A DNA stretch of 64,000 bases. Origin: Kingdonia uniflora (Eukaryota; Streptophyta; Magnoliopsida; Ranunculales; Circaeasteraceae). Position 1 is the stretch's first letter. Every line of letters starts with the position of its first letter. Position numbers and translations under genes: made by a program. The notes beneath the pieces were generated by a model. The model was not told where the DNA came from and ran no database searches. It saw only the letters and a list, made by a program, of their open reading frames with translations. This document shows, in pieces, positions 1,832 through 62,094 of this stretch. The stretch is from positions 682,001-746,000 of the forward strand of contig JACGCM010001796.1 of the NCBI GenBank assembly GCA_014058105.1, written 5' to 3'.

Positions 1832-3813
1832 TTATCTATTTTTGGTAGGCTCTACCTTATGAGGTGATTGCAATCCAGCAACGGCCGCCTGAGCTTGATT
1901 TTTTGGGGGGGATGACACATACGATGGAGAGGCATGGGCATTTTGCATGTCCTCGTTGACCGGCTCATCCTCAGCATCTGAAGGAAATATTATCTCTTCA
2001 TACTTACCTTCCAGTCAGAGAGAGATATCGGCCTCGGTTAACCTGAAGTGGCGATATGACTGGATCAAGTTGTCTCTTCCTACCTTCACTGTCTCTACGA
2101 CCATTTCTAAGACTTTTTCACGTTCAGACATCTGCGCCCATAACTCTGAAGTACCTTTCACCACTTCCACCGTTATCTTCTTCTCTTTATCGAGCTGATC
2201 AGTGAGCTCCTTCAACAGAGCAATTTGAGCTTCGACCTTCTGGAAAAGCTAGAAATATTCTTCTGTTTTCTTCTCAAGATAATCCGAAGACCCCTTCACT
2301 AGCATAGATAGCTGCCAACACAATAAAAAAGTCATGAATGGATATATCAATCAACGTACAGTAAACAAAACATATTAACATATACCTGCACCATCTGCTC
2401 TTCAAATACTTCTTCAAGCTTCCTCAGATTAGTCCCAGCCATATCAAAATAGCTTTGTTGTACTAACCTTAGCTTCGCCATAGCTTTAGACCGAGTTTGA
2501 TCATTACTTTCGATTTCATATTATTTTAACTCCCTCACTATCCTTATGTTGCTTTAACTCTGCAGTATCAGTAACCTCCAGGGGTGGCAACTTACCACCC
2601 TTTTCCCCATTTGAAGCCTCTCGAAAAGAACGAGAAGATTCCCTGAGCGTTCTATTCGTCATGCAAAACTTCTACTGGCCGCTCAAACTTTTCGGAGACG
2701 GCGGAGGGATGCCAGTTAAATCCCCAATGGGATGAAGGTCCGTATTTACAATGTTAACAGAATCCTCTCGATCTACCATAGCCCATCTTTGGTTAGCTCG
2801 CTGAACATCTAGAATTTTGGAGTCCACTCTTTTATCCTTACAAATGTTTAGATCCTCACGAACTTGCTTCAGCTCTATCTGTTCATGAGCTACACAGTCA
2901 AATAAGCACGATTTGTCAGGAACGGCTGTAGCTGTAGGACCTAATAGGAAAAATATACATAAATGATTAACTGCTTTTAGATAATCAAATATTTGATCAA
3001 GATAACAGAAGTTACTTACTCGGATTAAAATATTTAAATTCCAGCTCGAGCGCTGGTTCATCTGGGACCTGCATATAGTTACCCCTAACCAATACAAGAT
3101 GGTCGTTCCATGGTCAACCAACATATTTAAAGTCAAAAAACATCAGCCTCGAAGAGTTGCTAAACAGGTAACAAGTTTTGTAAGCTGTCAAATACTTTAT
3201 ATTGTAATATTTCATTACATCAACTGCAACAAACTGCTTCGCAATACCATTCTCACTCCACCTTTTATTCAAAACTTCCTATTTAATTGTGCTCGGTAGC
3301 AGTGCAGTATTCATGACCCTTTTTTGAAAATAAGTCAGTGGTACCCTAAGACCATAGACCACTTGGTTCAGATAATACAGAAACCCATCATCTGGGCCTA
3401 ATGTCCCAGACCCATTATAGTATGAAATATCTACATCCTCCCGAATACCTCTCTTCGCTTTCCACAGGTCGAGATTAAGCACTTGATAATATACCTTTTT
3501 CCCTTGAACTGGAAAAAATGTTATGAACCACAGACTTTACTCCATTACATAGTCTCCCCATTTCTGGGTTAATTTCATTTTAAATTTCGAATATTATTTT
3601 CATATATCTACTCCTTCTGGATATATAAAAAAAATGACTCATCCTCAATCTCTATTTCAGTATCCCCCTCTACTATATCCTCGACTTGAATGGGCACATT
3701 AGTTACTATACCCATGGTTACTTCCCTACTGTCTACAACATCCTCCATGCCGCCACAATCGTCCCCTCTACCTGACGACGATGTTTCCTAGGTCTTAAGT
3801 TCTTAGAACGCAT
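1832..3813 (-). pseudogene. Antisense gene gamma, left copy (multi-exon, decayed)
   Basis: Homologue of the plus-strand gene at 20378-22411. The ATG at 3813 (MRSKN) follows an acceptor-like TTTGTAG. An early frameshift separates it from the next conserved frame (SSSGRGDD...). A conserved block ends at a GTAAGT donor (exon end 3020); a short intron (2941-3019) ends in TATTAG, and the next exon starts at 2940 with a conserved PDKS motif. A later intron (about 2305-2382) precedes a coiled-coil segment (MKELTDQLDKEKK, 2215) and a Pro/Ser/Gln-rich tail ending near 1832. The lesions differ from those in the right copy, so the common ancestor was probably open. The composition recalls plant 'putative gypsy-type transposon' proteins, but I cannot confirm that. 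Function unknown. Confidence 0.6.
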
Positions 3814-10959: not shown

Positions 10960-11451
10960 TGTAAGGGCTTATTTCCCACTCTCGACCAAAGCCTGGATAT
11001 CGACCTCCACACTAACAGCTCGATTCAGTAGTCACACAATGTCATTAAAGAAGCCATTACGAATAAGAAGGATCAGACCGTTACACAATCAATATGAAGA
11101 CTCATCAAAACCATATTGAAACGTTTGTCATTAAAGGTAATAAATGTCATCAAACGGTCATATTATAAGACTTATAAATAAGACCAGAGAACTACAGATT
11201 AGGAATACATGAAAAATCCTAGACAGATAATTCTACCTAGAAACTCTACACAGAACTATCCAGAGCGTTCTTTGTAATAGCTAGTCAATCAATAATATAT
11301 TTTTCTTAATCCTCAAGAGAGTTCGTGGTTTTATCTATTCAGGGGTTTCTACGCTAATCTTTGTGTTTGATTAGTTGTTGCTTATTACATTCTAATCGTA
11401 TTCGGTGTGAGATACTAAATTCGAGATACGAAATTAGGCTCTTACAATTTC
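10960..11451 (+). repeat. 3' LTR of the left Tat-like element
   Basis: Starts TGTAAGGGCTTATTTCCC directly after the purine tract and ends GGCTCTTACA. It has a TATA-like ATAAATA near 11172-11179. It belongs to the same LTR family as 15212-15700 and 46361-46847. Its right end is the left border of MYB block A. Confidence 0.8.
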
Positions 11452-12050
11452 CATTTGGGATATTTGGTTTTGCTTTAAACTCTGCAAATTGTGACGTATG
11501 TGGAGGAGATGAGGCCATTAAAAACCCTTATCCAAACAACAACTAATCTAAAACCAGAAAACTCAATGTTGATTTCCAAACAGTATATTTTTCTAAACCA
11601 GTTCAAGTTCGAATTTGTTTAGGCCAATATAAAACTAGCTGCTCTAGTTTTGGGGATTCCCAGCCCAAAAGCTATCTAACGCAATCTTTTTTGTGACTCA
11701 ATTTAAACAAAAAAAACGTGGATATAACTTATATGGTTCAAAAGCTGTTTAGATTCGTACGAGATTGCATCATCCTACTACAATGGGAAGGGACCAGAAA
11801 ACGACCCCGTGGTTGTCTTTTATAGATATTACAAAGAAGGGAAACAAAATACAATGTATATTTGGAGTAATAATAGTTATAACGATATTGACAATTCGGA
11901 ACTGTAGATCTATTTTCTAACAGTTTCTGGCATAATAATAACTCAGAGAAAATGATGGCAGTATGTATACATGAAATGAGCCTCATTAAAACGATACACG
12001 TACATATGCATGAGTGGGATAAATAACTCATTCTTGAAAACCTACTCTCC
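11452..12050. other. 3' flank of MYB copy A
   Basis: No reading frame of note. The sequence is shared by all three MYB blocks, so it is part of the duplicated unit. It should hold the MYB 3' UTR and polyadenylation signals, which I cannot place precisely. Confidence 0.5.
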
Positions 12051-13195
12051 TCACCAATCTTCTTTGGCATTAAGAAATGTATCTAACGACTGGAGATCGG
12101 ACGTGGGATCACATTGAATACAGTTAACTCCGGTCCAATATTGCTCAATATTTTCACCATGGAACAAGAGTGGATTATCGGATGAAATTGGTGGGGACAA
12201 GTCATTGTTATTATCGATATTGCCGTCTAAACGAATTGTGTTATTATCGTCGAATCTACACAAGTCTGAGAAGTCCGAATGTAGGAATTCAGATAGACAA
12301 AGTCCCTCCACATCAAGATCAGCAATGAAATCTGATAACAACCCATCGGATTCTGGTGCTTTCTCCTTGACAAACTCGTTAACTGCGGCGGGCTCTTCTG
12401 GAGTGAAAAAAACCTTAGTGCAACTTGTGGCTTTGGTTCGTACAACACGATACTCAGTCGTCGGTACTGGTGGAGTTGGGTTGAACAGAATCCTCTTTTC
12501 CTTGGATAGAGTTGATTGTTTGTGAGTCCATTTTGAGGTTGAGTGACTTTGAACTTTTTTCGATAAATTGGTGTTCCAATAGTTCTTGATTTCATTGTCT
12601 GTTCGCCCTGGAAGACGACCAGCTATAAGCGACCATCTGTAAGCAAAAAAAAACAACAATGATCGTGTAAATAAAAAATAAACATGCAAAACCACGGTAA
12701 GCGTACAAAATATATATAAAGACAGGTAGAAGAATACCTATTTCCTAAAAGCTTATGAAGTCTGATAATAAGGTCATCCTCTTCTTCAGATATGTTTCCT
12801 CTCTTGATGTCAGGTCGTAAATAGTTTAACCATCGAAGTCGACAGCTTTTCCCACAACGTTTGAGACCTGCATTACCGAATACTCAAATTTAGGTACCTC
12901 TTTCGCAATATTTCAAAAAGAATCTCAAAATTGTCTATTTTGTCAAATGATACTATGAGATCCCCACCGCATAATCTTGGAAGAATTTAAATAACTAAAA
13001 ACAGAACATTAATTCAAATACTAAAAATAAATCTTCAATAATTGCATGTATGTAATATTGACCTGCTTCAATGGGGAGATTTCTCCAACTCCCTTGACCA
13101 TGGATTTGGATGTACTCTTCGAGAGTTCTATCTTCAAGAGCAGTCCAAGCTCCTCTGTTCAAACCATCTTTAGAGCAACAAGGTCTTCTACCCAT
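12051..13195 (-). CDS. TT2-like: R2R3-MYB transcription factor, TT2-like (copy A), intact
   Basis: Exons: 13063-13195, 12738-12867 and 12051-12636 (133, 130, 586 bp), joined through GT-AG introns into 282 residues. The first exon also opens at an upstream ATG (13210), but MGRRPCC at 13195 is the family start. R2 and R3 carry the regular Trp residues (GAW, GSW, LRW; NRW, NYW). R3 has the bHLH-interaction signature [20 protein letters not shown]. After the MYB domain, [14 protein letters not shown] matches the TT2-type motif of subgroup 5, though Ser replaces the Arg found in copy C. An acidic C-terminus ([11 protein letters not shown]) is likely to activate. TT2 proteins act in the nucleus with bHLH and WD40 partners to switch on proanthocyanidin genes such as anthocyanidin reductase; that role is inferred by family. 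Most likely the functional copy. Confidence 0.88.
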
Positions 13196-13297
13196 CTCTA
13201 GTGATATCAATTATGGTGGAGAGAGACTATTAGGGAAGAAGACCTCAAATGTGTCGCTCTTTTCAACTCTTAAAGGATGTTTTTTTGTCTGAACCGG

Positions 13298-13307
13298 ATA
13301 TATATTT
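13298..13307 (-). promoter_or_regulatory. TATA box of MYB copy A
   Basis: AAATATATAT on the minus strand, about 103 bp upstream of the ATG at 13195. The same box stands at the same distance in copy C (45649-45658) and is deleted in copy B. Confidence 0.5.
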
Positions 13308-15206
13308 GTGCTTGTGGCAAGGATAGCTGTGATGTATTATTGCTTTTACTTATTTGTTTTCTCACTTCTCGCTAGTCTCTTTCCCTGAGAAGCTATGGTC
13401 AGTAAAATCAGACACTTCTTGTCTTGCCACTGGCGCAGCTACATCTACTGAAATTTTGGGAATTTTTAAGCAACTAGTCTGATTTCTAGGTGATATTCTC
13501 CTTAATTATGTGATATTTATTCTCCTTAATTTCTCCTAAATTATTTCATTACTTCTAATATTTTTCTTGTATCTCCTTTTTTTTCTTTCTTTTTTCTAAT
13601 CTTGATTTGTAACATGTTTTGGTATCAATTACTTCACCAAAACTTTCTATGTTTTTTTTTATTAAGTTAGAATCTTGCTTGTGGGAATTGATCCTAGGAC
13701 CTCTTGGTTTTCATTTTCCAAGTCACTAATCCTACCAACTGAACAATCCTAGGACCTCTTGGTGGTAAATATTTCACCAAAACTTCTCATGTTTTGATCT
13801 AAAGGCCAACGATAATTTAATCTATCCCAAAAAAGGAGCCCTAGCGCCTTCACAATATGGTGAATCAAGGAGTCACCTAGCCTAAGGTTCAAAGGACTCC
13901 GAAGATTTGATCAATACTCAACAACTACATGAACAACATATTGATCTATGATCAACAACTCCTTTTTCCAAAACAAGATACAAGAGGCAAAAACATAGAA
14001 AAGAAGTAAACATAGATGCTCACACCCACCCTAGCTTCATGTGAGGTATCGAAAGGCACAAAGGGATGACAATTCATAAACCAACTTCATATTCTAGGTC
14101 ATATAACTTACTTTCTAGCATCTCTGAGTTGAAGATAGAAACAACAATACATATGTACTAAATGTATAGCATATATAGTTCTATGTTTTGAACTTGCATC
14201 TACGTTCATAGTAGCTATTAGGCTTGAAATAAAAGAGAAAAAAAAACTAATGTATAAGTTTACACGATCATTTTTTTCTTCCTCGAACCCCCATTTATCA
14301 TCCTCCCTATGAAACTTTGCCCTCACTTAACTAATTTCATGCCTCTGCCACTGTTTCTGCTATAGTGAAATAACATTTTAAAGAAGGTAAGAAAATTTCA
14401 ACATTTTAGGAAAAGCGGGTATGTTACTATCTTATGGATGATATGCTATGGAAAACTAAAACATGTTGTCCGTGCCGTTAGATGTTAATTTTTTTTTTTT
14501 TCTCCTACATGTTAAAATGTAAAGGTTTATACTTGATACACTAATACCACATGCTTGTGGGGGATTGTAAAGTAGTCCTAGCGTCCGCATAATTTGATTA
14601 TGAGAGCACGATATTGTGTTTTTTATTTGTTTGTGGGGGAGCTCTTGAAAAGGTTGATTACGGGATTGTTACTTAATAGTCTGTTTTTTTTTTAATGTCA
14701 CATGTCTATTGTCTCCAGTGGGGGGGTCCTATTGAATTTGTATGAGGACCTCATAGTATGTGAGCCCACAATACCAAAAATACCAACAGTAGCCCTAGTG
14801 TCTGGAATTTGATTACGAGAGCTTGATATATTGTGATTTTTATTTGTTTATGGAGGAGGTCTTGAAAACGTGTTCTCCTACCACTGCTAAGTTAATTATT
14901 GTTAATTTCTCTCTTCTCTCAAACTAGCTACCCTTCCCATAGTACACCCATTGAAAGTTTGTTGATGTCTTTATTTCTTCCGAAAATTTGGGAATAAATA
15001 TCGAAAGATTCAAACATTACTTTTTCTTTGATTGGGACTAAGAAAGATTTAGTTGTCAATGCTCGTCCTGCCCAACTTGTAGACCTTAAGCTTTTATTAT
15101 CTTTCTTTGATTTGGACTAACTGAGAAGCAAAATTGATTTTTTCCTATAATTGTCTCATTGTCCGTTAAAGAATAATGATTTGGAACTGGCATTAGAGAC
15201 AATCTT
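13308..15206. other. 5' flank of MYB copy A
   Basis: Mostly AT-rich non-coding DNA without a plausible gene. The part 13433-14633 is absent from copy C, while 13490-14000 has a counterpart at 40083-40563 in copy B, which suggests a deletion of about 1.2 kb in C. 14634-15206 matches 45778-46355. Confidence 0.5.
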
Positions 15207-16718: not shown

Positions 16719-17472
16719 TGCAATAGCCTAATTTCGAGATTCGAACTTAACCTTTACACCAAATGAATTTAGAACGTTCAAGAACAGTAGACAATAAACA
16801 ACAAGATGATTTACCGTAGAAAACCATTGAATAGGTTAAAAACCACGACCTCTCCTGATAATTTTGAGAAAGTGATAATCTTATTGAGATTGCTAGTTTA
16901 TTACAATGAGCGTTCTGAGAATATAATATGATAGAGTAGGAGCTTTTCTATGGTAAATGCTTTGTCCCTCATATGCAGTTCTTCAGGTCTTTTTATAGGT
17001 CCTCTAATATGACAGTTTGATGACCATAAAGTCCCTTAATGATGGATGTTACAAAGTGTGTGTGAGATATCCTTTGACCAGATTATGTAACGTTCTGATC
17101 TTTGCTATTGTACAACAACTCTATTACTGACTGTCTGCTTTGCATAGATCAACTATTGGTATAGCGGTCGAAAGTGATGTTTCAAACTGAGGAAAGTTGG
17201 TCATGTCTATAGTTGTACTTCATGTATGCTGATGAGATCGAGAACAAAGCTTGAGTCCGAGATACAAAATATGCTATTACAAGACGGCTCTCAACCAATA
17301 ACATGAGTGTCGTCAGGGATGAGTGGTATTAGTTGAGAAACTCGTGTTGTATATGTTTCCTGACATTGTTGTCTGATTTCTTATTGTGCCACGTACTCTA
17401 TTGTGGAGGCCAAAAGTTTGTATGTAGTTCGAAGATGAGGCATGAGCTCGAGATGCGGAATAAGCCACTACA
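16719..17472 (-). repeat. Long 3' LTR with an internal copy of the polypurine tract
   Basis: On the minus strand it begins TGTAGTGGCTTATTCC (17472) and ends GGCTATTGCA (16719). At 17281-17337 there is a second hairpin-tract-LTR start (AGAGCCGTCT then TGTAATAGC), so the first about 190 bp look like a tandem duplication of the LTR start together with the tract. The LTR at 62097-62822 has the same design. Confidence 0.7.
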
Positions 17473-17783
17473 ACCGCCCCCTCTCAACCAACAGTACGAG
17501 AAACATTGGATGCGAGTGGTATTGGTTGAGAAGTATCATTAAATGTTGTAGTTAATATCTAAGATTTATTTCTAATGTATATTCAAGAATTTTGTTGGTG
17601 TCCGTTGGGTTTTCTAGAACTAGTGACTATAGTCAAATGTTGTTGCATGGGGAATCTTTTTGACGTTAAGAATTTTGAGAGTCTACTTTGAATGCTAACC
17701 CGAGTATAAAAAGCACTCTGAGTTGAGTGGTAGGAGCCAACCTTCGTCTCTGATCTCTGCCTTCTTTATTTACTGTGGTAAAA
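17473..17783. other. 3' UTR with hairpin and tract
   Basis: Holds the perfect arms CTCAACCAA (17483-17491) and TTGGTTGAG (17522-17530) beside the purine tract, then an AT-rich leader up to alpha. No further gene seen. Confidence 0.5.
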
Positions 17784-19805: not shown

Positions 19806-20377
19806 ACTCGTCTCTCTCTCCCTCATGAATTGTCTACGGTTTCAGAGAGAGAGAAAAGTGGTTCAAGTATTATTGTCAAGGAGAGGAGACGTTTGAGTGC
19901 TGAGTGTGATTTGAGAAAGAAATCTTCATCGAGTAATAGGAGATTGTCGGAGAGATGACGGGAACGCTCATTTTTGAAGAGACGTCCGGGTAAAGCAAAA
20001 GATTGTTGTTCTACAAGTACAGGTTGGTAATGAAAAACTCTTGTCTATTTGATTTGTGAGTAATTTGTGTTATGTAGTAATCTGTAAAATTTAGCAATCT
20101 GTATAGTTATTTTACCATCTGGGGTTTTGGGGATTTTAAAATTAAATGTGAGAGAAGGCCTGTAATGAAGGAGTTGTGATATATGTTTTGATCCTGTAGT
20201 GAGAGAAAATATGTGTATTGGAGAAGAAGAGGGAAATTTGAAATAATTTGATTTGTGCTTTTTTGTTTTGGGAATTAGGAAAATAGACGTGTTGATTGGG
20301 TAGATGGGTGGGCATGTATGTACTGTTTGTAATGTAAAAATAATGATAAAATATGCTTCTCTATCTATAGATTCAGT

Positions 20378-22411
20378 ATGCGTTCTAAACCTAGTATTCC
20401 CATGAGTAAATTTGTAGTAACGTCCAATTCTGGGAAAACATCATCTTCAGGAAGGGGGGACGAGTATAGTATGATGGAGGAAACTGTTAATAGTGTAGGG
20501 ATGACCGTAGAGGTTGGGGAACCTAGTAGAACTGATATGGTGATAGAGAAAGAGAACGAGAAAGTCCTTGTCATATACCCAGAGGGGTTAGATATAGGGA
20601 AAAAATACTTAAAAAATAAAAAGAAATGTCAAGGAGACTGGGGGAGTTACATGGAGGACCAAGGTCTTTGGTTCAGAGCCTATGTCTCCAAAAAAGGGGA
20701 GGAAGCAATATACTATCAAGTTCCATGTTTGGAAAAGTGGAAGAATGATAAAGGTATTAGTGAGGGGGTTAACCTCTCGTATTACAATGAGCTTAGGTTA
20801 TCAGGCCCAAGTATTGGGTTGTTATGTTTCATGAATCAGGTCGTATACAGCCTTAGAATTCTGCTAACCTACTTTCAGAAAGAGGTTATGAATGTGCTAC
20901 AGTACTACCCTGCCCAGTTAAATGGGAATGTGTATAAGATGATGAGGGTATATGAGGTACTGAATAAAAAATGGAGGAAGGAAGGGGCTACGAAGCAGTT
21001 CGTAGCTGAAGATCTATTAAAGTTTTACAAGTTTAAGTATGTGGAGAGTCGGAGTAGTGGCTACCTGTATAGTGATCCAGCTAGGCCAAAATTCTTTAAT
21101 TTTGAATCTGCGGGTAGACCATGGAACGACCACCTTGTGTGGGTAGAGGGTAACTGTTTGCAGGTTCTAGATGAACCGCGCTCAAGCTGAACCATATATA
21201 TTATAATCCGAGTAAGTAATGTTGACCAACCTTCGAATAGTCGATAACCATGTCTTCGTGCTGTTTAAATGATGTTTTATTCCTTTTTATTGGCAGAACC
21301 CAAACCATCGGCTACGCCAGATAAGACTAGTATATTCAATTGTATTGCTCGAGACCCAGACGGGCAAAAATAGGTACTCAGCAAGTTGGGTATCCGAAGA
21401 GACAAAAGAGTAGATTCTGCAGTACCCAAAGTTTAGCGTGCTCAGGAGAAACGAGTTATGGCTGAGGGAAAAACTGTTGAGACCGTTGCTGACGTGCTTA
21501 ATTTTCTACTTCTTGTACCTCTGATTACCAAAAGAATTGCTCATAAGGTCTGAAAGCCAGCGTAGCAGAGTACCTCAGCCGCTGGGGTTGTGCTCACAGA
21601 ACAAAAGATTGTAAAGCCCGCTGCTGGCGGTGTGGAGGAAAAAATTGAAGTGAGCGTGTCCGCTCTTTGGGAGGCTGAGAAGAGTTCGTTGAAGAGAAAA
21701 CGGTATTTAGAGGAGGGCAGTGACCGAACTAACCCTCATGTTGTGGCCAAGATGAAAGAGTTAGAGCAGAAATACTGTCGTATGGTTGGGACAAACTCGC
21801 AACAGCTCGAGGATGAGTACCTCGAACATACGTTAGCAGTATGTAGTCAAAAATTGTTACTTGATGTTGTCTTCAAATTAAGTAAAACTGTTGAACTGAC
21901 TCTTCTTTATTGTTTGTACTGGCAGCTCTCAACGCTGCTGAAGGTGGTAAGATAATGTTTGGACAAGAGGAGCCAAGAATTTGATGCTCTGACGACAAAG
22001 TTTAAGGCTTAGTCAGCTCGCGTGAAAGAGCTTATGGCTGACCTTCTGTTGGGGAGAGAGAGGAGGATTGCAGATGCTACCACAGCTGCAGAAAAGTTAA
22101 ATGATTTATCAAAGCATGATAACCTCATGACTGATTCAGTTGCATCAGTCTTAGTGGAAAGAGACCACTTTATCCAATTGTACTATTCTTATGGACTAAG
22201 CGTTGATGATGTGGAACTGACCCGGAGTGGTAGATATGGAGAGGTAGAGTTCCCTGCTGAGGTCGAGGGGGTAGAGATGGCTGATGATGTTGCTGGTTTG
22301 CCTGAGAAAGCGTCAAACCTTCGTCTAGGCCGTACAGAGCCAGTCCATACTGTTGAGCAAATAGTGGACCCTCTAGTGGAACGTGCTGAAATAGTTTCCT
22401 CTCCGAGGTAG
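20378..22411 (+). pseudogene. Antisense gene gamma, right copy (multi-exon, nearly open)
   Basis: The first coding exon starts MRSKPSIPMSKF at 20378 and runs open for 270 codons; it includes the conserved GLWFRAYVSKKGE, SYYNELRLSGP and NQVVYSLRILLTYFQKEVMN segments. A frameshift near its end leads into AATCCGA|GTAAGT (exon end 21211). The intron is 21212-21296 (TTGGCAG), and the next exon begins with a PDKT motif matching the left copy but has stops. A further intron ends at CTGGCAG near 21925. The last part is a coiled coil (MKELMADLLLGRERR, 22034) with an acidic tail ending 22411. Intron positions agree with the left copy. No catalytic motif seen; function unknown. Recalls plant 'putative gypsy-type transposon' proteins. 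Confidence 0.6.
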
Positions 22412-23975: not shown

Positions 23976-24078
23976 GTCAGTTATTGGTACGTCCAATTCT
24001 ACGAAACAAAACACATTCCACAAGTTGGTTATTGAATCAAACTAGTCCAACCTACATTCAAACATTTCAACAACATAT

Positions 24079-24745
24079 CTCATTACGGTCGCTTATTGAT
24101 ACGCTCAATTCGATCTGTAACTGAGACCTACAACATAGTTCTTCCAGTATACACGCTGTCCCGAGGATCGCTTATTGAGTTAATCAATTTGACCAGGCAG
24201 AGATACGTTATACAGCTATTCAACATTCAATATATCTCATTACGATCGCTTATTGATACATTCAATTCGACCTATAACTGAGACTTACAACATAGCTCTT
24301 CCAGTATACACGCTGTCCCAAGAGTCGCTTATTAAGTCAATCAATTCGAATTGGCAGAGACACGATATACAGCTATTCAACATTCAATATATCTCATTAC
24401 GGTCACTTATTGATGCGCTCAATTCGACCTGTAACTGAGACCTATAATATATCTCTTCAAGTATACACGCTGTCCCGAGGGTCGCTTATTCAGTTAATCA
24501 ATTCGACCTGGTAGAGACACACTATATAGCTATTCAACATTCAATTTATCTAATTACGATCGCTTATTGATAAGCTCAATTCGACCTCTAACTGAGACCT
24601 ACAATATAGCTCTTCAAATATACACGTTGTCCCGAGGGTCGCTTATTGAGTCAATCAATTTGACCTGGTAGAGACATGCTAAACAGCTATTTAACATTCA
24701 ACAATTCTCCTCACGGTTGGTTATTGATTCGCTCAATTCAACCTG
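24079..24745 (+). repeat. 157-bp tandem repeat array, about four and a half units
   Basis: The phrase CTCATTACGGTCGCTTATTG recurs (with changes) at 24079, 24236, 24393, 24550 and, more diverged, near 24712, i.e. every 157 bp. The unit also holds a CTGTCCCGAGG segment. Such arrays in the 3' UTR of Tat/Ogre elements are a known source of plant satellites. Confidence 0.8.
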
Positions 24746-24751
24746 TGCTCG

Positions 24752-24965
24752 AAACATACTATCATATATTCTAATCATACAAACTATCATACATTCTACT
24801 ACATTATCATACATTTTACTACAGTATCATCCATTCAAATACACAATCATACATTCTAAAATACAATCATACATTCTAACATACTATCATACATTCTAAT
24901 ACATTATCATCCATTTTACTATATCATACATTCTGCTATATTATCATACATTCTCTTACATTCGA
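24752..24965 (+). repeat. Short tandem array of ATCATACATTCTA units
   Basis: Ten or more imperfect units of about 16-18 bp (variants CATACATTCTAATACATT, CATCCATTTTACTA), directly downstream of the 157-bp array. Confidence 0.7.
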
Positions 24966-25030
24966 ACAGTTGGTTATTGGTTCAACCAATCCAACCATAC
25001 AGTCTACATATTCAAAGATCAAAGATGTGT

Positions 25031-25088
25031 CTCAACCAACACCACTCGCCCCTGATGCTTCTCGTGCTATTGGCTGAGATGGGGCGTA
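25031..25088 (+). promoter_or_regulatory. Hairpin and polypurine tract before an LTR
   Basis: Arms CTCAACCAA (25031-25039) and TTGGCTGAG (25070-25078), then GAGATGGGGCG just before the LTR at 25089. Confidence 0.5.
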
Positions 25089-25623
25089 TGTAGTGGACTT
25101 ATTTCCAATACTCGACCTAAACCCAGATTTCAACCTTCAGCCCGATTGGATGTAAATGCCAATTCTGAAACTCAAGCTCAGGTCTCAAGCATTCGACCAT
25201 CACGCATTTACTCGACCTCGTCAACAAACACGTGACGCATTTATGACACATTATGGAGCGGTTACACGGAAGAAGAGTTACTCAAGCCATTACTCGACCA
25301 TTATGAAAGACCATTATGAAGACTCATCAAAACCTGATATTGTAACGTTCCTCATCAATGTAACCAACGATCATGTTATAAGACCTATAAATAGGACTAG
25401 AGAACGACAGATTAGAGAGGCGGCATTGATACATCTTTTAGGAGACCTTTTCTACATTTTTCTCTCTTTATAATAGTTAGCAGTCTATAAACATCTCTCT
25501 CTTTCAAAAATCCTCAGGAGAAGTCGTGGTTTTTAACCTATTCAAGGGTTTTCCACTCTAAATCTTGTGTTAGTTACTTTCAGTTCTTAGCTAACATTCC
25601 ATATTTCAAGGGTGTAAGGCACT
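25089..25623 (+). repeat. LTR, plus orientation, missing its last 32 bp
   Basis: Begins TGTAGTGGACTTATTTCC and follows the two inverted LTRs closely until GTGTAAGGCACT; the expected end (through GGCTATTACA) is absent. A 5-base TTCCA then leads straight into the tRNA. TATAAATA at 25386-25393 is the likely LTR promoter. Confidence 0.75.
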
Positions 25624-25628
25624 TTCCA

Positions 25629-25704
25629 GCCGTCTTAGCTCAGCTGGTAGAGCGCGTGGCTTTTAACCACGTAGTCGTGGGTTCAATTCCTACAGACGGT
25701 GCCA
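25629..25704 (+). tRNA. tRNA-Lys(UUU): tRNA-Lys(UUU) sequence with CCA, fused to an inverted LTR
   Basis: A 73-nt cloverleaf: acceptor GCCGTCT with AGACGGT (one G-U pair), D arm GCTC/GAGC, anticodon arm CGTGG-CTTTTAA-CCACG with TTT anticodon, T arm GTGGG/CCTAC, discriminator G. CCA follows at 25702-25704, although nuclear plant tRNA genes do not encode it. Two A residues later, at 25707, the reverse complement of an LTR begins. That is the spacing seen between LTR and primer-binding site at 62077-62097. The likeliest origin is a primer tRNA copied whole into cDNA. The A box (TAGCTCAGCTGG) and B box (GGTTCAATTCC) are good and a T5 run lies at 25717-25721 or nearby, so transcription by Pol III is possible. 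Confidence 0.85.
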
Positions 25705-25706
25705 AA

Positions 25707-26273
25707 TGTAATAGCCTATTTTTGTATTGGACGAAGATAGTGTCTTACACCCTTGAAATATAGAATGTTAGTTAAAAACTGAAAGTAACTAACACAAGAT
25801 TTAGCGTGGAAAACCCTTGAATGGGTTAAAAACCACGACCTTTCATGAGGATTTTAGAAATAGAGAGATGTTTATAGACTGCTAGCTATTACAAAAAGAG
25901 AGAGATATAGAAAAGGTTTCCTAGATGATGTATCAGAACCGCCTCTCGAATCTGTCGCTCTCTAGTCCTATTTTTAGGTCTTATAACATGACTGTTGGTT
26001 ACATTGACGAGGAACGTTACAATATTAGGTTTTGATGAGTCTTCATAATGGTCTTTCATAATGGTCGAGTAACGGCTTAAGTAACTCTTCTTCCTTATAA
26101 CCACTCCATAATGTGCCATAAATGCGTCACGTATTTGTTGACGAGGTTGAGTAAATGTGTGATAGTTGAATGCTTGAGACCTGAGCTTGAGTTTCAGAAC
26201 TGGCATTTATATCCAATCGGGCTGAAGGTTGAAATCTGGGTTTAGGTTGAGTATTGGAAATAAGTTCACTACA
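25707..26273 (-). repeat. LTR, minus orientation, joined to the tRNA
   Basis: On the minus strand TGTAGTGAACTTATTTCC...GGCTATTACA, then TT and TGGCACCGTCTGTAGG, i.e. the tRNA complement in the primer-binding position. Differences from the plus LTR are often CG to CA or TG, as expected for methylated repeats. Confidence 0.85.
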
Positions 26274-26278
26274 TACTA

Positions 26279-26844
26279 TGTAATAGCCTATTTTCGTATT
26301 GGATGAAGATAGTGTCTTACACCCTTAAAATATGGAATGTTAGCTAAGAACTCTAAGTAACTAACACAAGATTTAGCGTGGAAAACCCTTGAATGGGTTA
26401 AAAGTCATGACCTCTCCTGAGGATTTTAGAAAGAGAGAGATGTTTATAGACTGCTAGCTATTACAAAGAGAGAGAGATGAAAAAAAGGTTTCCTAGAAGA
26501 TGTATCAGAGCCGCCTCTCTAATCTGTCGCTCTCTAGTCCTATTTATAGGTCTTATAACATGACCGTTGGTTATATTGATGAGGAACGTTACAATATCAA
26601 GTTTTGATGAGTCTTCATAATGGTCTTTCATAATGGTTGAGTAACGGCTTGAGTAACTCTTCTTCCTTGTAACTGTTCCATAATGTGTCATAAATGTGCC
26701 ACGTGTTTGTTGATGAGGTCGAGTAAATGCGTGATGTCGAATGCTTGAGACCTAAGCTTTAGTTTCAGAACTGGCATTTACATCCAATCGGGTTGAAGGT
26801 TGAAATCCTGGTTTAGGTCGAGTATTGGAAATAAGTCCACTACA
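26279..26844 (-). repeat. Second LTR, minus orientation, 5 bp from the first
   Basis: Nearly the same length (566 bp) and orientation as 25707-26273, separated from it only by TACTA (26274-26278). No interior sequence lies between them. Confidence 0.85.
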
Positions 26845-31540: not shown

Positions 31541-32768
31541 CTATCAGCAAATTTTGTGAAATTTGTGAGTAATTCGTGAATTAGGCGAACTAAGCACTTA
31601 TTTGGAGACTTATACGACATACCCCCAGTACGCGAATAATATGCAAATTATTGGTATAATTCGGAGAACTTTGTGCTTTGACACATTTCGAGTGTCAAAT
31701 ACTCCGTAAAAGTGGGTGGGGACTATAGTCTCCGCTCTATCGTTCTCAATAATTGATAATTTAATATCGAATCTTTGAAAAATGATGTTATTCAATAATT
31801 AAAATGGAAATCGTCACTTTTACAGGTCGTCCGTACTTGAACCCTATGTTGAATATTAAACACCCCTTAGGCCATAGGTTAAGATTTTTTTCGATGAACG
31901 TTTTCATTAAGATGTCTACTTAGTACTTTCAGATTTTATTGTTGTTTCTATCTTTGAAAATAAAGATAAGGAGCAATAATTTCTTCTAGGATGTGAAAAT
32001 TTGAACTCTGATTTGAAGTTCGACTCTTATAGAAGTGGGTTTCAGTCGATTGAAAAAGAAATGACTTACTTTAATGGTGCACAAAGTCTATCCTTCACCT
32101 CTTGTTTTTCAGTGATGAAATGCCCACCCCACATATGGTTGCTTTTGTGTGTTCATAAGAGGAGTACCAAAGAAAACTCAATGATGATTTCCATTAGGGG
32201 ATTTGGTTTTGCTTTAAAATCTACGAATTGCGACGTATGTTAAAGAGATGAGGCCAGTAAAAACCCATATCCAAACAACAAGTAAATCTAAAACCAGAAA
32301 ACTTAATGATGATTTCCAAACAGTATATTTTTCTAAACCAGTTCAAGTTCGAATTTTTTCAGGCAAATATAGAACTAGCTGCTCTAGTTTTGGGGGTTCC
32401 TGTCCAAAAGCTATCTAACGAATTCAAGTTTGTTTTTTGTAACTCAATTTTCCAAAAAAAAAAAAAAAAAACGTGGATAGAATCTATAAGGCCAAAAGTT
32501 GTTTCAATTCGTACGAGATTACAAACGTGGTTTTCCTTCATAGATATTAGAAAGAAGGGAAACAAAATACGATGTATATTTGGAGTTATATAGCTATAAC
32601 GATATTGACACTTCGGAACTGTAGATCTGTTTTTTTAACAGTATCTCGCATAATAATAACTCAGAGAGAATGATGGCAGTATGTATACATGAAATGAGCC
32701 TTATTAAAACGATACACGTACATATGCATGAGTGGGATAAATAACTCATTCTTGAAAACCTACTCTCC
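31541..32768. other. Left part of MYB block B (3' flank of copy B)
   Basis: 31541-31720 has no match in the window. From about 31720 (CTATAGTCTCCGCTCTATCG) the text follows block C (41045 on) and, from about 32190, block A. No gene seen. A 17-A run is at about 32455-32470. Confidence 0.55.
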
Positions 32769-33147
32769 TCACCAATCTTCTTTGGCATTAAGAAATGTAT
32801 CTAACGACTGGAGATCGGACTGGGATCACGTTGAATACAGTTAAATCCGGTCAATATTGTTCAATATTTTCACCATGGAACAAGAGTGGATTATCGGATG
32901 AAATTGGTGGGACAAGTCATTGTTATTATCGATATTGCCGTCTAAACGAATTGTGTTATAATCGTCGAATCTACACAGGTCTGAGAAGTCCGAATGTAGG
33001 AATTCAGATAGACAAAGTCCCCCCACATCAAGATCAGCCATAAAATTTGATAACAACCATCGGATTCTGGTGCTTTCTCCTTGACAAATTCGTTAACTTC
33101 GGCGGGCTCTTCTGGAGTGAAAAAAACCTTAGTGCACATTGTGGCTG

Positions 33148-33984
33148 TGTTAGGAATACGACTCAAAATTGGGAAAGCCGTTCAAACGAGTGGGGAAGTC
33201 GTTCGGACGAAAATAGCGCTTGGGCCAAAATTCCAGAAAACTGTTATGGTCGTTCGAACGACCTCATGACTCGTTCGAACGACTTTGGCTCTGTTTGGTT
33301 GTTTCTAAATTCGTCTTAAAGGGGATTTAATCCAAAACGATAGATTATCTCCTGATGCGTAATTCGAAGATGACCTAATGGAAGGTCTATAAATATAGAG
33401 TGTAAGTTCAAAGCCTTTAATCGATTTGTATCAAACACAGTATGTGAGTTAAAAGCCTTTGTGTGAGAAACTTGAGATCTAGAAGAGATGTAGCCTCTGT
33501 GGTAGACCTTGTAAAGAGTTGGTCTTTACAAGGAAGAAGATGGAGTGTGTTGTTCTATTGGGATTTGATGGTGAGAGGGGAAGTACATCTAGATTGCTAA
33601 GAAGATAAATCAAGGTAGAGAAAAGATTAAAGGGTTTCAAGAAGAAGGTATGCAACATGGTCTTTGTTGAGGTAATCTTCGATGTTCTTGATGGATCTTT
33701 TATGTTTCGTTTATCTCTTGTAAATCTATGTGAGGATTATTGCGAGATTAGGGATTTCCATGTTTGTTGGAATCCCTTGAGTGCTTGTAATTGAACTTGA
33801 ATACATAGTGGATTTCTAGCTTGGTGGGGGGAGTAGCCTTATGGTGAACCTCCGGTAAATATTGTGTTTTGTGTGCATATTAATTTCGTTTCTAGTTTAT
33901 TGGTAGATTATTTGTATGCCATGAGGATAACGGAGAAAACCAAATTGCGCGAGGGTGATGTATTCCTCACGTTCACCCCCAACA
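33148..33984 (+). repeat. 5' LTR of the outer element
   Basis: TGTTAGGAATACG...CACCCCCAACA, 837 bp. Contains GTTCGAACGA motifs (about 33250-33285). Confidence 0.9.
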
Positions 33985-38820: not shown

Positions 38821-39587
38821 CTTTGATTCGTATAACACGAAACTCAGTCGTCGGTACTGGTGGTGGTAGTCGTGTTGGTGGAGTTGGGTTGATCAAAATC
38901 CTCTTTTCCTTGGATAGAGTTGATTGTTTGTGAGTCGATTTTAAGGTTGAGTGACTTGGAACTTTTTTCGATATATTGGTGTTCCAATAGTTTTTGATTT
39001 CATTGTCTGTTCGCCCTGGAAGACGGCCAGCTATAAGCGACCATCTGTAAGCGAAAGAAAAAAAAAAAAAAAAACAACAATTATCGTGCATATAAAAAAT
39101 AAACATGCAAAACCAGGCTAAGCGTACAAAATATATATAAAGACAGGTAGAAGAATGCCTATTTCCTAAAAGCTTATGCAGTCTGATAATAAGGTCATCC
39201 TCTTCTTTAGATATGTTTCCTCTCTTGATGTCAGGTCGTAAATAGTTTAACCATCGAAGTCGACAGCTTTTTCCGCAACGTTTGAGACCTGCATTACCGA
39301 ATACTCGAATTTAGGCACCCCTTTCACAATATTTCCAAAAGAATCTCAAAATTGTCTTTTTTGTCAAATGATACTATGATCCCCACCCCATATTCATTTT
39401 TGATTTCAAATACTAAAAATAAATCTTCAATAATTGCTTGTATGTAATATTGACCTGCTTCAATGGGGAGATTTCTCCAACTCCCTTGACCATGGATTTG
39501 GATGTGCTCTTTGAGAATTTTATCTTCAAGGGCAGTCCAAGCTCCTTTGTTCAAACCTTCTTTAGAGCAACAAGGTCTTCTACCCAT

Positions 39588-40569
39588 CTCTAGTGATATC
39601 AATTATGGCGGAGAGAGACTAATAGGGAAGAAGACCTCAAATGTGTTGCTCTTTTCAACTCTTAAAGGATGTTTTTATGCCTGAACTGGATAGCTGTGAG
39701 GTATTGCTTTTACTTATTTGGGAGCAAAACTATTTTTATTTTTTCCGCTTTTGGCCCTTCTGTGTTCTCACTTCTCACTAGTATCTTTCCCTGAGAAGCT
39801 CAGTGAAATTTAGGATTTGTTAATCTGTTTTCTTCTTTAGTTCCATGTTATGGTATGTGTTTATGATAATGGAGTGGGTATTAATAGTCATAGCACCTCA
39901 TAATAAGGATATAGATCAAACTGTAAGAATTTGGAGATTCATTCGAATTTCAGTTCACCATAACACTTCACAATCAAGCCATAAATTTCAGTTTGCTGAT
40001 TTTGATTGTTAAGAAAAACACTTAGTAAGTAAAAACAGCCATTATTAATGGTGGGAGAGAGAGAGTTGTTGAGGGTAAAATGACAACTAGTCTGATTTCT
40101 AGGTGATAGTCTTTCTATGGTGATATTCTCCTTAATTATGACCTATTTATTCTCCTTAATTTCTTCTAAATTATTTCATTACTTCTATTAGTTCTCTCTT
40201 TAAATATATCTGCCCAACTTGGACTCTATATTTTCAAAATCTTTTTCTTGTATCCTTCAGCGGTAGTCCCTTTTTTTTATGTATTATTATTATTATTTAT
40301 TTATAATCTTGATTTGTAACATATTTTGGTGTAAGTTATTTCACCAAAAATTCCCATGTTTTGATCGAAAAGCTAATGATAATTTAGTCTGTCCCAAAAA
40401 AGGAGGCCCTAGCGCCTTCACCATATGGTAAATCATGGAGTCACCTAGCCTAAGGTTCAAAGGACCCCGAAGATTTGATCAGTACTCAACAACTACATGA
40501 ACAACATATTGATCTAAGATCAACAACTCCGTTTTCCAAAACAAGATACAAGAGGCAAAAACATACAAA
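39588..40569. other. 5' flank of MYB copy B
   Basis: Follows the 5' flank of copy A with indels. The 24-bp TATA segment is missing at 39688-39692, with GGATA at the join. No gene. Confidence 0.6.
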
Positions 40570-43476: not shown

Positions 43477-43923
43477 CTTTGAAAATAAAGATCAAGAAGC
43501 AACAATTTCTTCAGGATATGAAAATCTGAACTCTGATTTGAAGTTCAACTCTTATAGAAGTGGGTTTCAGTCGATTGAAAAAGAAATGGTTGTTACTTTA
43601 ATGGTGCACAAAGTCTATCCTTCACCTCTTGTTTTTAAGTGATGAAATGTCACCCCACATATGGTTGATTTTGTGTGTTCATAAGAGGAGTAACAAAGAA
43701 CACTCAATGATGATTTCCATTGGGGGATTTGGTTTTGCTTTAAAATCTACGAATTGTGGCGTATGTCGAGGGAGATGAGGCCAGTAAGAACTCATATTCA
43801 AGCAACAACTAATCTAAAACCAGAAAACTCAATGATGATTTCCAAACATTATATTTTTCTAAACCAGTTCAAGGTTGAATTTGTTCATGCAAATATAGAA
43901 CTAGCTGCTCTAGTTTTGGGGGT
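43477..43923 (+). repeat. Direct repeat right of the TIR element
   Basis: Second copy of 41272-41694; continues into the MYB 3' flank (GGGGGTTACCAGTCC) where the left copy stops. Confidence 0.8.
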
Positions 43924-44386
43924 TACCAGTCCAAAAGCTATCAAACGCAATCAAGTTTGTTTTTTGTGACTCAATTTTCAAAAAAAAAACGTGGATAGAA
44001 TTTATAAGGTCCAAAAGCTGTTTAGATTGGTAACAAAGTACATTATACAATTACAATGGGAAGGGACCAGTAAACGACCTCGTGGTTGTCCTTCATAGAT
44101 ATTACAAAGAAGGAGAACAAAATACGATGTATATTTGGAGCTTACGATGTATATTTGGAGCTATAATAGTTGTAACGATATTGACAATTCGGAACTCTAG
44201 ATCTATTTTTTAACAGTTGCTGGCATAATAATATCTCAGAGAAAATGGTGGCAGTATGTATACATGAAATGAGCCTTATTAAAAATGGTGGCAGTATATA
44301 TGCATACATGAAACGAGCCTTATTAAAACGATACACATACATATGCATGAGTGGGATAAATAACTCGTTCTTGAAACCTACTCTCC
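43924..44386. other. 3' flank of MYB copy C
   Basis: Matches A and B, with two local duplications specific to C: GCTTACGATGTATATTTGGA twice at about 44121-44160, and an about 43-bp repeat at 44243-44329. Contains no gene. Confidence 0.6.
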
Positions 44387-45546
44387 TCACCAATCTTCTT
44401 TGGCATTAAGAAATGTATCTAACGACTGGAGATCGGACGTGGCATCACGTTGAATACAGTTAACTCCGGTCCAATATTGTTCAATATTTTCACCATGGAA
44501 CAAGAGTGGATTATCGGATGAAATTGGTGGGGGAGACAAGTCATTGGTATTATCGATATTGCCGTCTAAACGAATTGTGTTATTATCGTCAAATCTACAC
44601 AGGTCCGAGAAGTCCGAATGTAGGAATTCGGATAGACAAAGTCCCCCCACATCAAGGTCATCCATGAAATCTGATAACAACCCATCGGATTCTGGTGCTA
44701 ACTCTGGAGTGAAAAAAACCTTAGTGCACCTTGTGGCTTTGGTTCGTACAACACGAGACTCAGTCGTCGGTACTGGTGGTGGCAGTCGTGCTGATGGAGT
44801 TGGGTTGTTTAGAATCCTCTTTTCCATAGATAGAGTTGATTCTTTGTGAGTCCGTTTTGAGGTTGAGTGACTTTGAACTTTTTTCGATAAATTGGTGTTC
44901 CAATAGTTTTTGATTTCATTGTCTGTTCGCCCTGGAAGACGACCAGCTATAAGCGACCATCTGTAAGCGGAAAAAAAAAAAAAAAAAAAAAAACAATTAT
45001 CGTGCATATAAAAAATAAACATGCAAAACCAGGCTAAGCGTACAAAATATATATAAAGACAGGTAGAAGAATGCCTATTTCCTAAAAGCTTATGAAGTCT
45101 GATAATAAGGTCATCCTCTTCTTCAGATATGTTTCCTCTCTTGATGTCAGGTCGTAAATAGTTTAACCATCGAAGTCGACAGCTTTTTCCGCAACGTTTG
45201 AGACCTGCATTACCGAATACTCAAATTTAGGCACCCCTTTCGCAATATTTCCAAAAGAACCTCAAAATTGTCTTTTTTGCCAAATGATACTATGATCCCC
45301 ACCCCATATTCTTGGAAGAATAAAAAAACGAAGAATTTAAATAACTAAAAACAGAACATTGATTTCAAATACTAAAAATAAATCTTCAATAGTTGCATGT
45401 ATGTAATATTGACCTGCTTCAATGGGGAGATTTCTCCAACTCCCTTGACCATGGATTTGGATGTACTCTTCGAGAGTTCTATCTTCAAGAGCAGTCCAAG
45501 CTCCTCTGTTCAAACCATCTTTAGAGCAACAAGGTCTTCTACCCAT
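44387..45546 (-). CDS. TT2-like: R2R3-MYB transcription factor, TT2-like (copy C)
   Basis: Exons 45414-45546, 45075-45204 and 44387-44960 (133, 130, 574 bp) give 278 residues. Exon 1 gives the same protein as copy A. The MYB domain and the bHLH-contact signature are intact, and the C-terminal motif is the canonical [14 protein letters not shown]. Relative to A there is an insertion (ARLPP) before it and a 12-residue loss after it. Intron 2 begins GC (AATAG|GCATTC) rather than GT, as in B; a long T run of about 23 precedes the acceptor of the same intron. If GC is not used, intron retention would add stops after R3 begins. Expected role as for copy A. Confidence 0.82.
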
Positions 45547-45648
45547 CTCTAGTGATATCAATTATGGTGGAGAGAGACTAATAGGGAAGAAGACCTCAAT
45601 TGTGTCGCTCTTTTCAACTCTTAAAGGATGTTTTTTTGTCTGAACCGG

Positions 45649-45658
45649 ATATATATTT
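45649..45658 (-). promoter_or_regulatory. TATA box of MYB copy C
   Basis: AAATATATAT on the minus strand, 103 bp before the ATG, as in copy A. Confidence 0.5.
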
Positions 45659-46355
45659 GTGCTTGTGGCAAGGATAGCTGTGATGTATTATTGCTTTTAC
45701 TTATTTGTTTTCTCACTTCTCGCTAGTCTCTTTCCCTGAGAAGCTATGGTCAGTAAAATCAGACACATCTTGTCTTGCGGGGGAGCTCTTGAAAAGGTTG
45801 ATTACGGGATTGTCACTTAATAGTCTGTTTTTTTTTTAATGTCACATGTCTATTGTCTCCAGTGGGGGGGGTCCTATTGAATTTGTATGAGGACCTCATA
45901 GTATGTGAGCCCACAATACCAAAAATACCAACAGTAGCCCTAGTGTCTGGAATTTGATTACGAGAGCTTGATATATTGTGATTTTTATTTGTTTATGGAG
46001 GAGGTCTTGGAAACGTGTTCTCCTACCACTGCTAAGTTAATTATTGTTAATTTCTCTCTTCTCTCTTCTCTCTTCTCTCTTCTCTCAAACTAGCTACCCT
46101 TCCCATAGTACACCCATTGAAAGTTTGTTGATGTCTTTATTTCTTCCGAAAATTTGGGAATAAATATCGAAAAATTCAAACATTACACTTTCTTTGATTG
46201 GGACTTAGAAACATTTAGTTATCGATGCTCGTCCCGCCCACTTGTAGACTTTCTTTGATTTGGACTTACTGATAAGCAAAATTGATTTTTGTCCTATAAT
46301 TGTCTCATTGTCCACTAAAGAATAAAGATTTGGAACTGGCATTAGAGACAATCTT
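45659..46355. other. 5' flank of MYB copy C
   Basis: Matches copy A to about 45776, then jumps to the A sequence beginning at 14634. A TCTCTTC microsatellite (about 46053-46087) has about five units against two in A. No gene. Confidence 0.55.
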
Positions 46356-62076: not shown

Positions 62077-62094
62077 TTCCCACAGACGGTGCCA
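62077..62094 (-). promoter_or_regulatory. Tat primer-binding site (tRNA-Lys)
   Basis: Minus strand TGGCACCGTCTGTGGGAA, two bases (TT) after the LTR. It is complementary to the 3' end of the tRNA-Lys at 25629 except for one base, and has the same two-base spacing. Confidence 0.85.

Follow-up and report, generated by a model that had tools for sequence, protein, structure and literature searches.

The locus described here raises the question of how a complete tRNA-Lys(UUU) came to lie between two LTRs of opposite orientation in the genome of the plant Kingdonia uniflora. The window, i.e. the whole stretch of DNA analysed, comprises 64,000 nucleotides of contig JACGCM010001796.1. A preliminary description of the window had proposed that the primer tRNA of an LTR retroelement had been copied into DNA over its whole length, and that the resulting LTR-tRNA-inverted LTR had been integrated. 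On the plus strand, the locus consists, in this order, of tandem repeats, a PPT-like run, LTR-L(+), TTCCA, tRNA-Lys(UUU)+CCA, AA, LTR-M(-), TACTA and LTR-R(-), the positions of which are given below together with a site used for comparison.

24071..24970, plus strand: tandem repeats, four units of 157 bp and then units of about 20 bp (repeat search)
24990..25088, plus strand: 3' internal end of the (+) element, its last part the PPT-like GAGATGGGGCGTA (genome contiguity; PPT-like run kept in L122-L124)
25089..25623, plus strand: LTR-L, 3' LTR, without about 32 bp of its U5 end (LTR alignments)
25624..25628, plus strand: TTCCA where the two parts join, either filler or in part LTR-derived (sequence; comparison with sibling LTRs)
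25629..25704, plus strand: full-length copy of tRNA-Lys(UUU), nt 1-73 plus CCA, read as reverse-transcribed (ARAGORN, Rfam, gene comparison)
25705..25706, plus strand: AA spacer from CCA to LTR; on the element's strand, TT from LTR to primer-binding site (PBS) (sequence)
25707..26273, minus strand: LTR-M, complete, with the tRNA tail on its U5 end (LTR alignments)
26274..26278, no strand: TACTA, from LTR-M to LTR-R (sequence)
26279..26844, minus strand: LTR-R, complete, third LTR of the LTR-L/LTR-M subfamily (LTR alignments)
62079..62094, minus strand: primer-binding site of the Tat-like 62 kb element, for comparison (tRNA match nt 59-76 at 62077-62094)

LTR-L(+) and LTR-M form an inverted repeat with 91% identity over 538-541 nt, and LTR-M, on the minus strand, starts with TGTAATAGCC and terminates with CACTACA. 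The last ~32 bp that are missing from LTR-L are present in LTR-M, in LTR-R and in three sibling LTRs elsewhere in the genome (L122-L124), which upholds the truncation reported in the preliminary description, although the TTCCA that it regarded as filler may be partly LTR-derived. Two features had been overlooked: LTR-R(-) begins only 5 bp (TACTA) past LTR-M, and element-internal sequence directly precedes LTR-L. Because the internal end and the LTR start (24990-25130) are contiguous at 40 of the 40 scored genome places (out of 2248 candidates), the window among them, LTR-L belongs to a multicopy (+) element as its 3' LTR, and the insert is therefore not a simple LTR-tRNA-LTR unit. The tandem repeats are taken as the 3' non-coding part of this element, a link drawn from the same genome-wide contiguity. 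The 5-bp target-site duplication of the integrase type, expected for an LTR-tRNA-LTR unit, was not found: the flanks GCGTA (left of LTR-L), TACTA (right of LTR-M) and AGTTT (right of LTR-R) are unpaired, and the TACTA at 26274-26278 has no matching duplication on the other side of LTR-M or LTR-R. Given the third LTR and the lack of a target-site duplication, the data do not support that the inverted product was integrated as one unit, and a simple palindromic insertion is rejected on the 3' LTR context and the same lack of a duplication.

The mutual identity of LTR-L, LTR-M and LTR-R is 90.9-92.8%, as compared with 81.4-88.9% to the LTRs of L122-L124. With gapped columns and the columns from 530 onward removed, the three diverge in a star-like manner, with 17, 26 and 21 unique changes, respectively, over 529 columns, and pairwise divergences of 8.1% (L-M), 7.2% (L-R) and 8.9% (M-R). 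At commonly assumed plant rates, this presumably corresponds to about 3-7 million years.

Regarding the tRNA itself, ARAGORN calls a tRNA-Lys(ttt) at 25629-25704, and Rfam a tRNA at 25629-25701 (68.7 bits). CCA occupies 25702-25704 and AA 25705-25706, directly before the reverse complement of a complete LTR, so that the two programs and the sequence confirm this part of the preliminary description. Compared with the gene plus CCA, the copy has four changes in 76 positions, each of them C>T or G>A (45A, 57A, 63U and 72U at nt 45, 57, 63 and 72), a number that would be compatible with the age of the LTR-L/M/R divergence. Its first nucleotide at the junction is precisely nt 1 of the tRNA, as would follow from run-off synthesis. 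The 62 kb element reads, by eye, GGTTCCCACAGACGGTGCCA-AA-TGTAATAGCC with a tRNA match from nt 59; the CCA-AA-TG register and the ~18 nt of tRNA (nt 59-76) previously described for it were thus recovered, and CCA-AA-TGTAATAGCC is exact at both 25702 and 62092. Within the window, the 16-nt PBS core has two matches with up to three mismatches, versus 0.15 expected. The 15-mer CCAAATGTAATAGCC, searched with the same tolerance, was found three times versus 1.9 expected, which is not significant, and its two exact matches are the window junction and the 62 kb PBS.

A query composed of the tRNA, CCA, AA and 30 nt of LTR, which favours long matches, was searched against the 1.003-Gb assembly and gave 42 rows at 40 distinct places (the 40 scored of 610 candidates), all of which were examined. 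The tRNA-AA-LTR arrangement is found in one register at 31 of these 40 places including the window, at 30 of them with CCA and at one (L010) with CAA, and the AA register is common to several LTR families. Eight places are intact tRNA-Lys genes without CCA, seven identical and one with a single change, and nothing in the 0.7-2.2 kb retrieved for them matches an M-type LTR; another (L037) is gene-like and has neither CCA nor the LTR register. Since the genes lack CCA, while the AA-LTR register recurs at 30 other places, at 29 of them with CCA and at L010 with CAA, an origin from a tRNA gene hitched to LTRs is rejected and, judged from the sequence, the tRNA in the window is a reverse-transcribed mature primer, copied end to end. 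In this respect, the preliminary description has held up well: copying of the whole primer is supported by the CCA, the register and the junction at nt 1, and the improbability of a chance tRNA gene is borne out by the eight genes and the 31 places. Ordinary tRNA genes at varied distances from LTRs were not seen among the 40 places.

The view that the window records a single event was not borne out. A 33-nt PBS+LTR pattern gave 495 genome matches with up to three mismatches, and its reversed control gave 0; the pattern needs a match to about nt 52 and is thus blind to 18-nt sites. We examined 71 of the 100 listed matches (of the 495), 10 at earlier loci and 61 in 60 new regions. The remaining 29 listed matches all start with GC at nt 52-53 and have the appearance of the nt-54 type, which is under-counted because they were left out. 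Clustering by the tRNA-adjacent sequence, with all rows included, yielded 66 independent junctions, in which the tRNA copy starts at nt 1-6 (11 junctions), nt 7-24 (4), nt 25-32 (29), nt 34 (1), nt 37-46 (11) or nt 50-54 (10), these limits being set by a scoring rule to which chance can add 1-2 nt. A start at nt 25-31 occurs in 22 of 47 pattern-sampled junctions, versus 6.1 expected if starts were uniform, and 1 of 20000 simulated sets equalled 22/47 in any 7-nt stretch (fraction 5e-05), with cluster medians entered by hand and a uniform null that is crude. A pattern of nt 1-24 with up to two mismatches occurs at 24 places genome-wide, nine of them new. Three of the nine (L114, L118 and L120) hold full-length copies, that of L120 being internally deleted; none of the remaining six is a PBS copy. 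Full-length (nt 1-6) junctions thus number at least 14 (11 of the 66 plus L114, L118 and L120), next to the larger partial set. At three related places (L115, L116 and L117), tRNA-Lys is present only to about nt 26-27, where unrelated sequence takes over.

The 62 kb element encodes the Pfam families Retrotrans_gag, RVT_1 and RVT_3/RNase_H and, like the partners of the tRNA tails discussed below, we take it to be Tat-like Ty3/gypsy. Four ORFs at 17.7-22.4 kb of the window match 0 Pfam families. A 285-aa ORF at 20333-21187 (plus strand), likewise without a Pfam match, has a relative with 65% DNA identity at 3012-3655 (minus strand). It may be an extra ORF that a Tat-like element carries in antisense, and a minus-strand LTR at 16719-17473, 78% identical to the 62 kb LTR, is perhaps the 3' LTR of the element with this ORF. 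In the Retand lineage, the stretch from pol to the 3' LTR is described as holding an antisense ORF that has a TRP28 domain (PMC11963269); tandem repeats are present here, but with no Pfam family in the four ORFs, an assignment to Retand was rejected. The window also harbours R2R3-MYB genes of the TT2 type in tandem or dispersed duplicates (84-91% identical; 11447-13427, 31951-33149, 38821-39800 and 43713-45778), several of which look interrupted.

The partners to which the tRNA tails were joined were searched for in the 150 nt from each of the 66 junctions. A Tat-like gag-pol or leader partner was found at 25 junctions, in all cases in the orientation of the LTR. One of these (L074) is at the normal leader, and the misplaced Tat interior partners are sense in 24 of 24 cases with breakpoints scattered over the element, a count that leaves out five junctions with partners in the 17.5-25.1 kb region (four on one strand, one on the other), whose orientation is uncertain. 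Inverted LTR partners are present in the window and at L009, L026, L033, L077 and L120, and the other U5-U5 joins with a tRNA between them are L009, L033, L077 and L120 (L120 by eye in both respects); direct partial LTR partners occur at L011/L012, L017, L023, L027 and L091. No identifiable partner was found within 150 nt at 30 junctions. Same-orientation deletion products are thus the commonest traceable class. Their sense orientation, variable breakpoints and fixed tRNA ends are what would be expected if an over-long plus strand had been transferred to a site inside the minus strand, and random end-joining to any fragment is disfavoured because it would not prefer one orientation. A further 5-6 kb of flank at L010, L019 and L032, where the copies are full-length or start at nt 28, revealed no second copy of the LTR, and integration of these deletion products as ordinary two-LTR elements lacks support. 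At L077 (C131:56561-56674), two tRNA tails with starts near nt 27 lie head to head, forming a near-perfect palindrome between inverted LTRs.

The starts of the tRNA copies also bear on where copying stopped. They coincide with the tRNA 5' end (nt 1 in the window; cluster nt 1-6) or with a candidate modification stop (cluster nt 25-32), the main cluster at nt 25-31 adjoining G26. By analogy, m1A58 and m2,2G26 may have been the stops, the methylation of G26 being putative in Kingdonia. In Arabidopsis nuclear tRNAs, m2,2G26 is reported to be widespread and m1A58 ubiquitous, and reverse transcription of the nuclear tRNA-LysTTT almost always truncates internally, at a position that the available part of the report does not give (PMC11658184). 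In HIV-1, plus-strand strong-stop synthesis is described to stop at m1A58, and unmodified tRNA to be fully copied (PMC13191261). The nt-54 group, in which one family has 16 clustered copies, fits over-extension past A58. A second group, with starts at nt 37-46 (L054, L057, L060, L062/L072, L067, L070, L071, L073, L079, L090 and L095), is not accounted for by m1A58 or G26; ms2t6A37 would predict nt 38, where few starts lie.

A long primer-binding site can apparently also be passed on. Six loci (L029, L039, L042, L041, L053 and L055) share their flanks (92.7-94.8% over about 630 nt in the four compared) and match the tRNA over 50 nt with 0-2 changes, so a tail that reaches nt 27 is heritable. 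The cluster comprises seven copies, six with the 50-nt tail, and the seventh (L056) has lost nt 27-52. In such families, the G26 stop would have been taken up as a 50-nt primer-binding site that is inherited. A side observation is that L124 (C142:730743 region) has PPT, LTR, TT and PBS in a row, i.e. two head-to-tail elements with one common LTR. We tentatively regard these data as a fossilised ladder of primer-tRNA run-off, with a heritable 50-nt PBS and with aberrant transfer of longer or misplaced tails giving rise to internal-deletion and inverted-LTR derivatives, a composite reading that we hold with slightly less than even confidence. Its stops would lie before m1A58 (18-nt PBS), at nt 54, at G26 (50-nt tail) and at the tRNA 5' end, and DNA would then record past modification of tRNA-Lys.

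The mature-tRNA origin, the register, its recurrence, the preferred 5' limits and the orientation of the partners are the observations that a mechanism has to accommodate. We consider it likely that a Tat-like element ran off its tRNA-Lys(UUU) primer and that the tail was misjoined, in the window by end-joining to a truncated U5 end. The Tat-like Ty3/gypsy element would prime its cDNA with tRNA-Lys(UUU), and during plus-strand strong-stop synthesis, the presumed time of the event, reverse transcriptase would usually halt before A58, leaving an 18-nt primer-binding site. When it passes A58, it may run off the 5' end of the still-attached tRNA, yielding an LTR with a 76-nt tRNA tail, whose end would be misused because it cannot pair correctly in the second strand transfer. 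In most of the sister cases that can be traced, the tail would have ended up on gag-pol interior sequence of the element itself, both parts having one orientation. For the window, we presume end-joining as the last step: the run-off U5-tRNA end would have met a 3' LTR of the same subfamily at its truncated U5 end, this LTR being part of either a co-produced cDNA or an existing copy, and LTR-tRNA-inverted LTR would have resulted. Against this mechanism stand the lack of a target-site duplication and the third LTR, which it leaves without explanation.

In another, unlikely course of events, the run-off tail would have folded as a DNA acceptor stem and its 3' end would have primed on its own PBS (GCCGTCT) and been extended over its own LTR, generating LTR-TT-TGGC-tRNA-CCA-AA-inverted LTR in one molecule, from which the window later lost the left U5 end and PBS. 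The predicted TT-TGGC, followed by the tRNA from nt 2-3 onward, can be seen by eye at L009 and L120, and the predicted fold of the tail places its last 7 nt in the paired acceptor stem, with z -3.4 and a stability that none of 200 shuffles reached. However, L009 and L120 are equally explained if a normal 18-nt PBS end and a run-off end were joined through microhomology. In the window, no TT-TGGC lies left of the tRNA, and LTR-L is itself preceded by a PPT and an internal region, so that we favour end-joining of the run-off tail there. Quite unlikely, in turn, is a later rearrangement, in which inversion, deletion or ectopic recombination after integration brought the tail of LTR-M, inserted separately within a same-orientation deletion element, against LTR-L. 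Such a history would agree with the missing target-site duplications, the third LTR 5 bp away and the prevalence of same-orientation deletion products among traceable ones, but the break would need to hit tRNA nt 1 exactly, and U5-U5 joins recur (L009, L033 and L077).

Inverted arms are a known form of assembly artefact, arising from an inverted chimeric read. This explanation is very improbable for the window and was rejected, as its arms differ at 43 of 529 aligned columns (8%); analogous structures also occur on other contigs. The least credible proposal, with a probability close to nil, is that of an ordinary genomic tRNA-Lys gene beside which LTRs inserted by chance: the tRNA is indeed well preserved (68.7 bits versus 75.2 for the gene L013), yet it carries CCA, its AA register is found at 31 of the 40 places and with several LTR families, and the eight genes have neither CCA nor, as far as their flanks were covered, an M-type LTR.

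Whether the copy could act as a tRNA gene is a matter of prediction. Its Rfam score is the best of six retro-copies, the others scoring 64.2 to 31.3 bits and the gene L013 75.2 bits. Read by eye, it has what we take to be internal promoter box motifs, and it is followed by TTTTT at 25719-25723. It is possible that the copy is transcribable. ARAGORN calls a tRNA in seven of 13 other full-length copies, and the decay of most copies suggests that there is no selection on them.

Read-through of a primer tRNA has so far been known as a biochemical dead end and from single (retroviral) accidents. The open-licence literature that we searched yielded no account of a plant genome with full copies of a primer tRNA, nor of a ladder on a genome-wide scale, which is weak evidence of novelty. 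If our view is correct, plant genomes retain an evolutionary record of the stops of reverse transcriptase on modified tRNA, a primer-binding site can grow longer and be passed on in that form, and failed transfer of the plus strand gives rise to non-autonomous deletion elements. It should be noted that some annotated tRNA genes may be reverse-transcribed primers, given the ARAGORN calls in seven of the 13 further full-length copies.

Several known systems resemble the one described here in part. Helenus TRIMs are, like the window, LTR elements with a tRNA-like sequence, which in their case is described as lying inside the LTR (PMC10886601); the window tRNA is located outside both LTR-M and LTR-L, at the primer-binding site, and this relationship was therefore ruled out. 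For HIV-1, read-through when A58 is unmethylated and a lentiviral primer over-extension sequence are described (PMC13191261). As in Kingdonia, copying in plus-strand strong-stop synthesis then proceeds past A58, up to the tRNA 5' end; the over-long HIV-1 products (P1, P5) are, in the text available, biochemical and unused in transfer, whereas those of Kingdonia have descendants in the genome (PMC13191261). Closer in structure is the reverse-transcribed tRNA-Gly reported beside the HIV MN provirus (Gurgo and Franchini 2025, PMC12220202), where a CCA-containing tRNA copy also abuts the U5 end of an LTR and joining without integrase has been proposed. It differs in that it concerns one cell clone and a non-cognate tRNA, for which the authors favour self-primed copying without LTR priming (PMC12220202). 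Finally, in a laboratory circle, a spurious mature tRNA primer is described as copied, with its four 5' bases missing, and kept at the LTR junction (PMC12220202). The likeness to the window is that of a mature tRNA primer present as DNA at an LTR junction; in contrast to the spurious primer of the circle, the Kingdonia copies derive from the cognate primer, are fixed in the germline, recur many times, and occur in an inverted LTR context.
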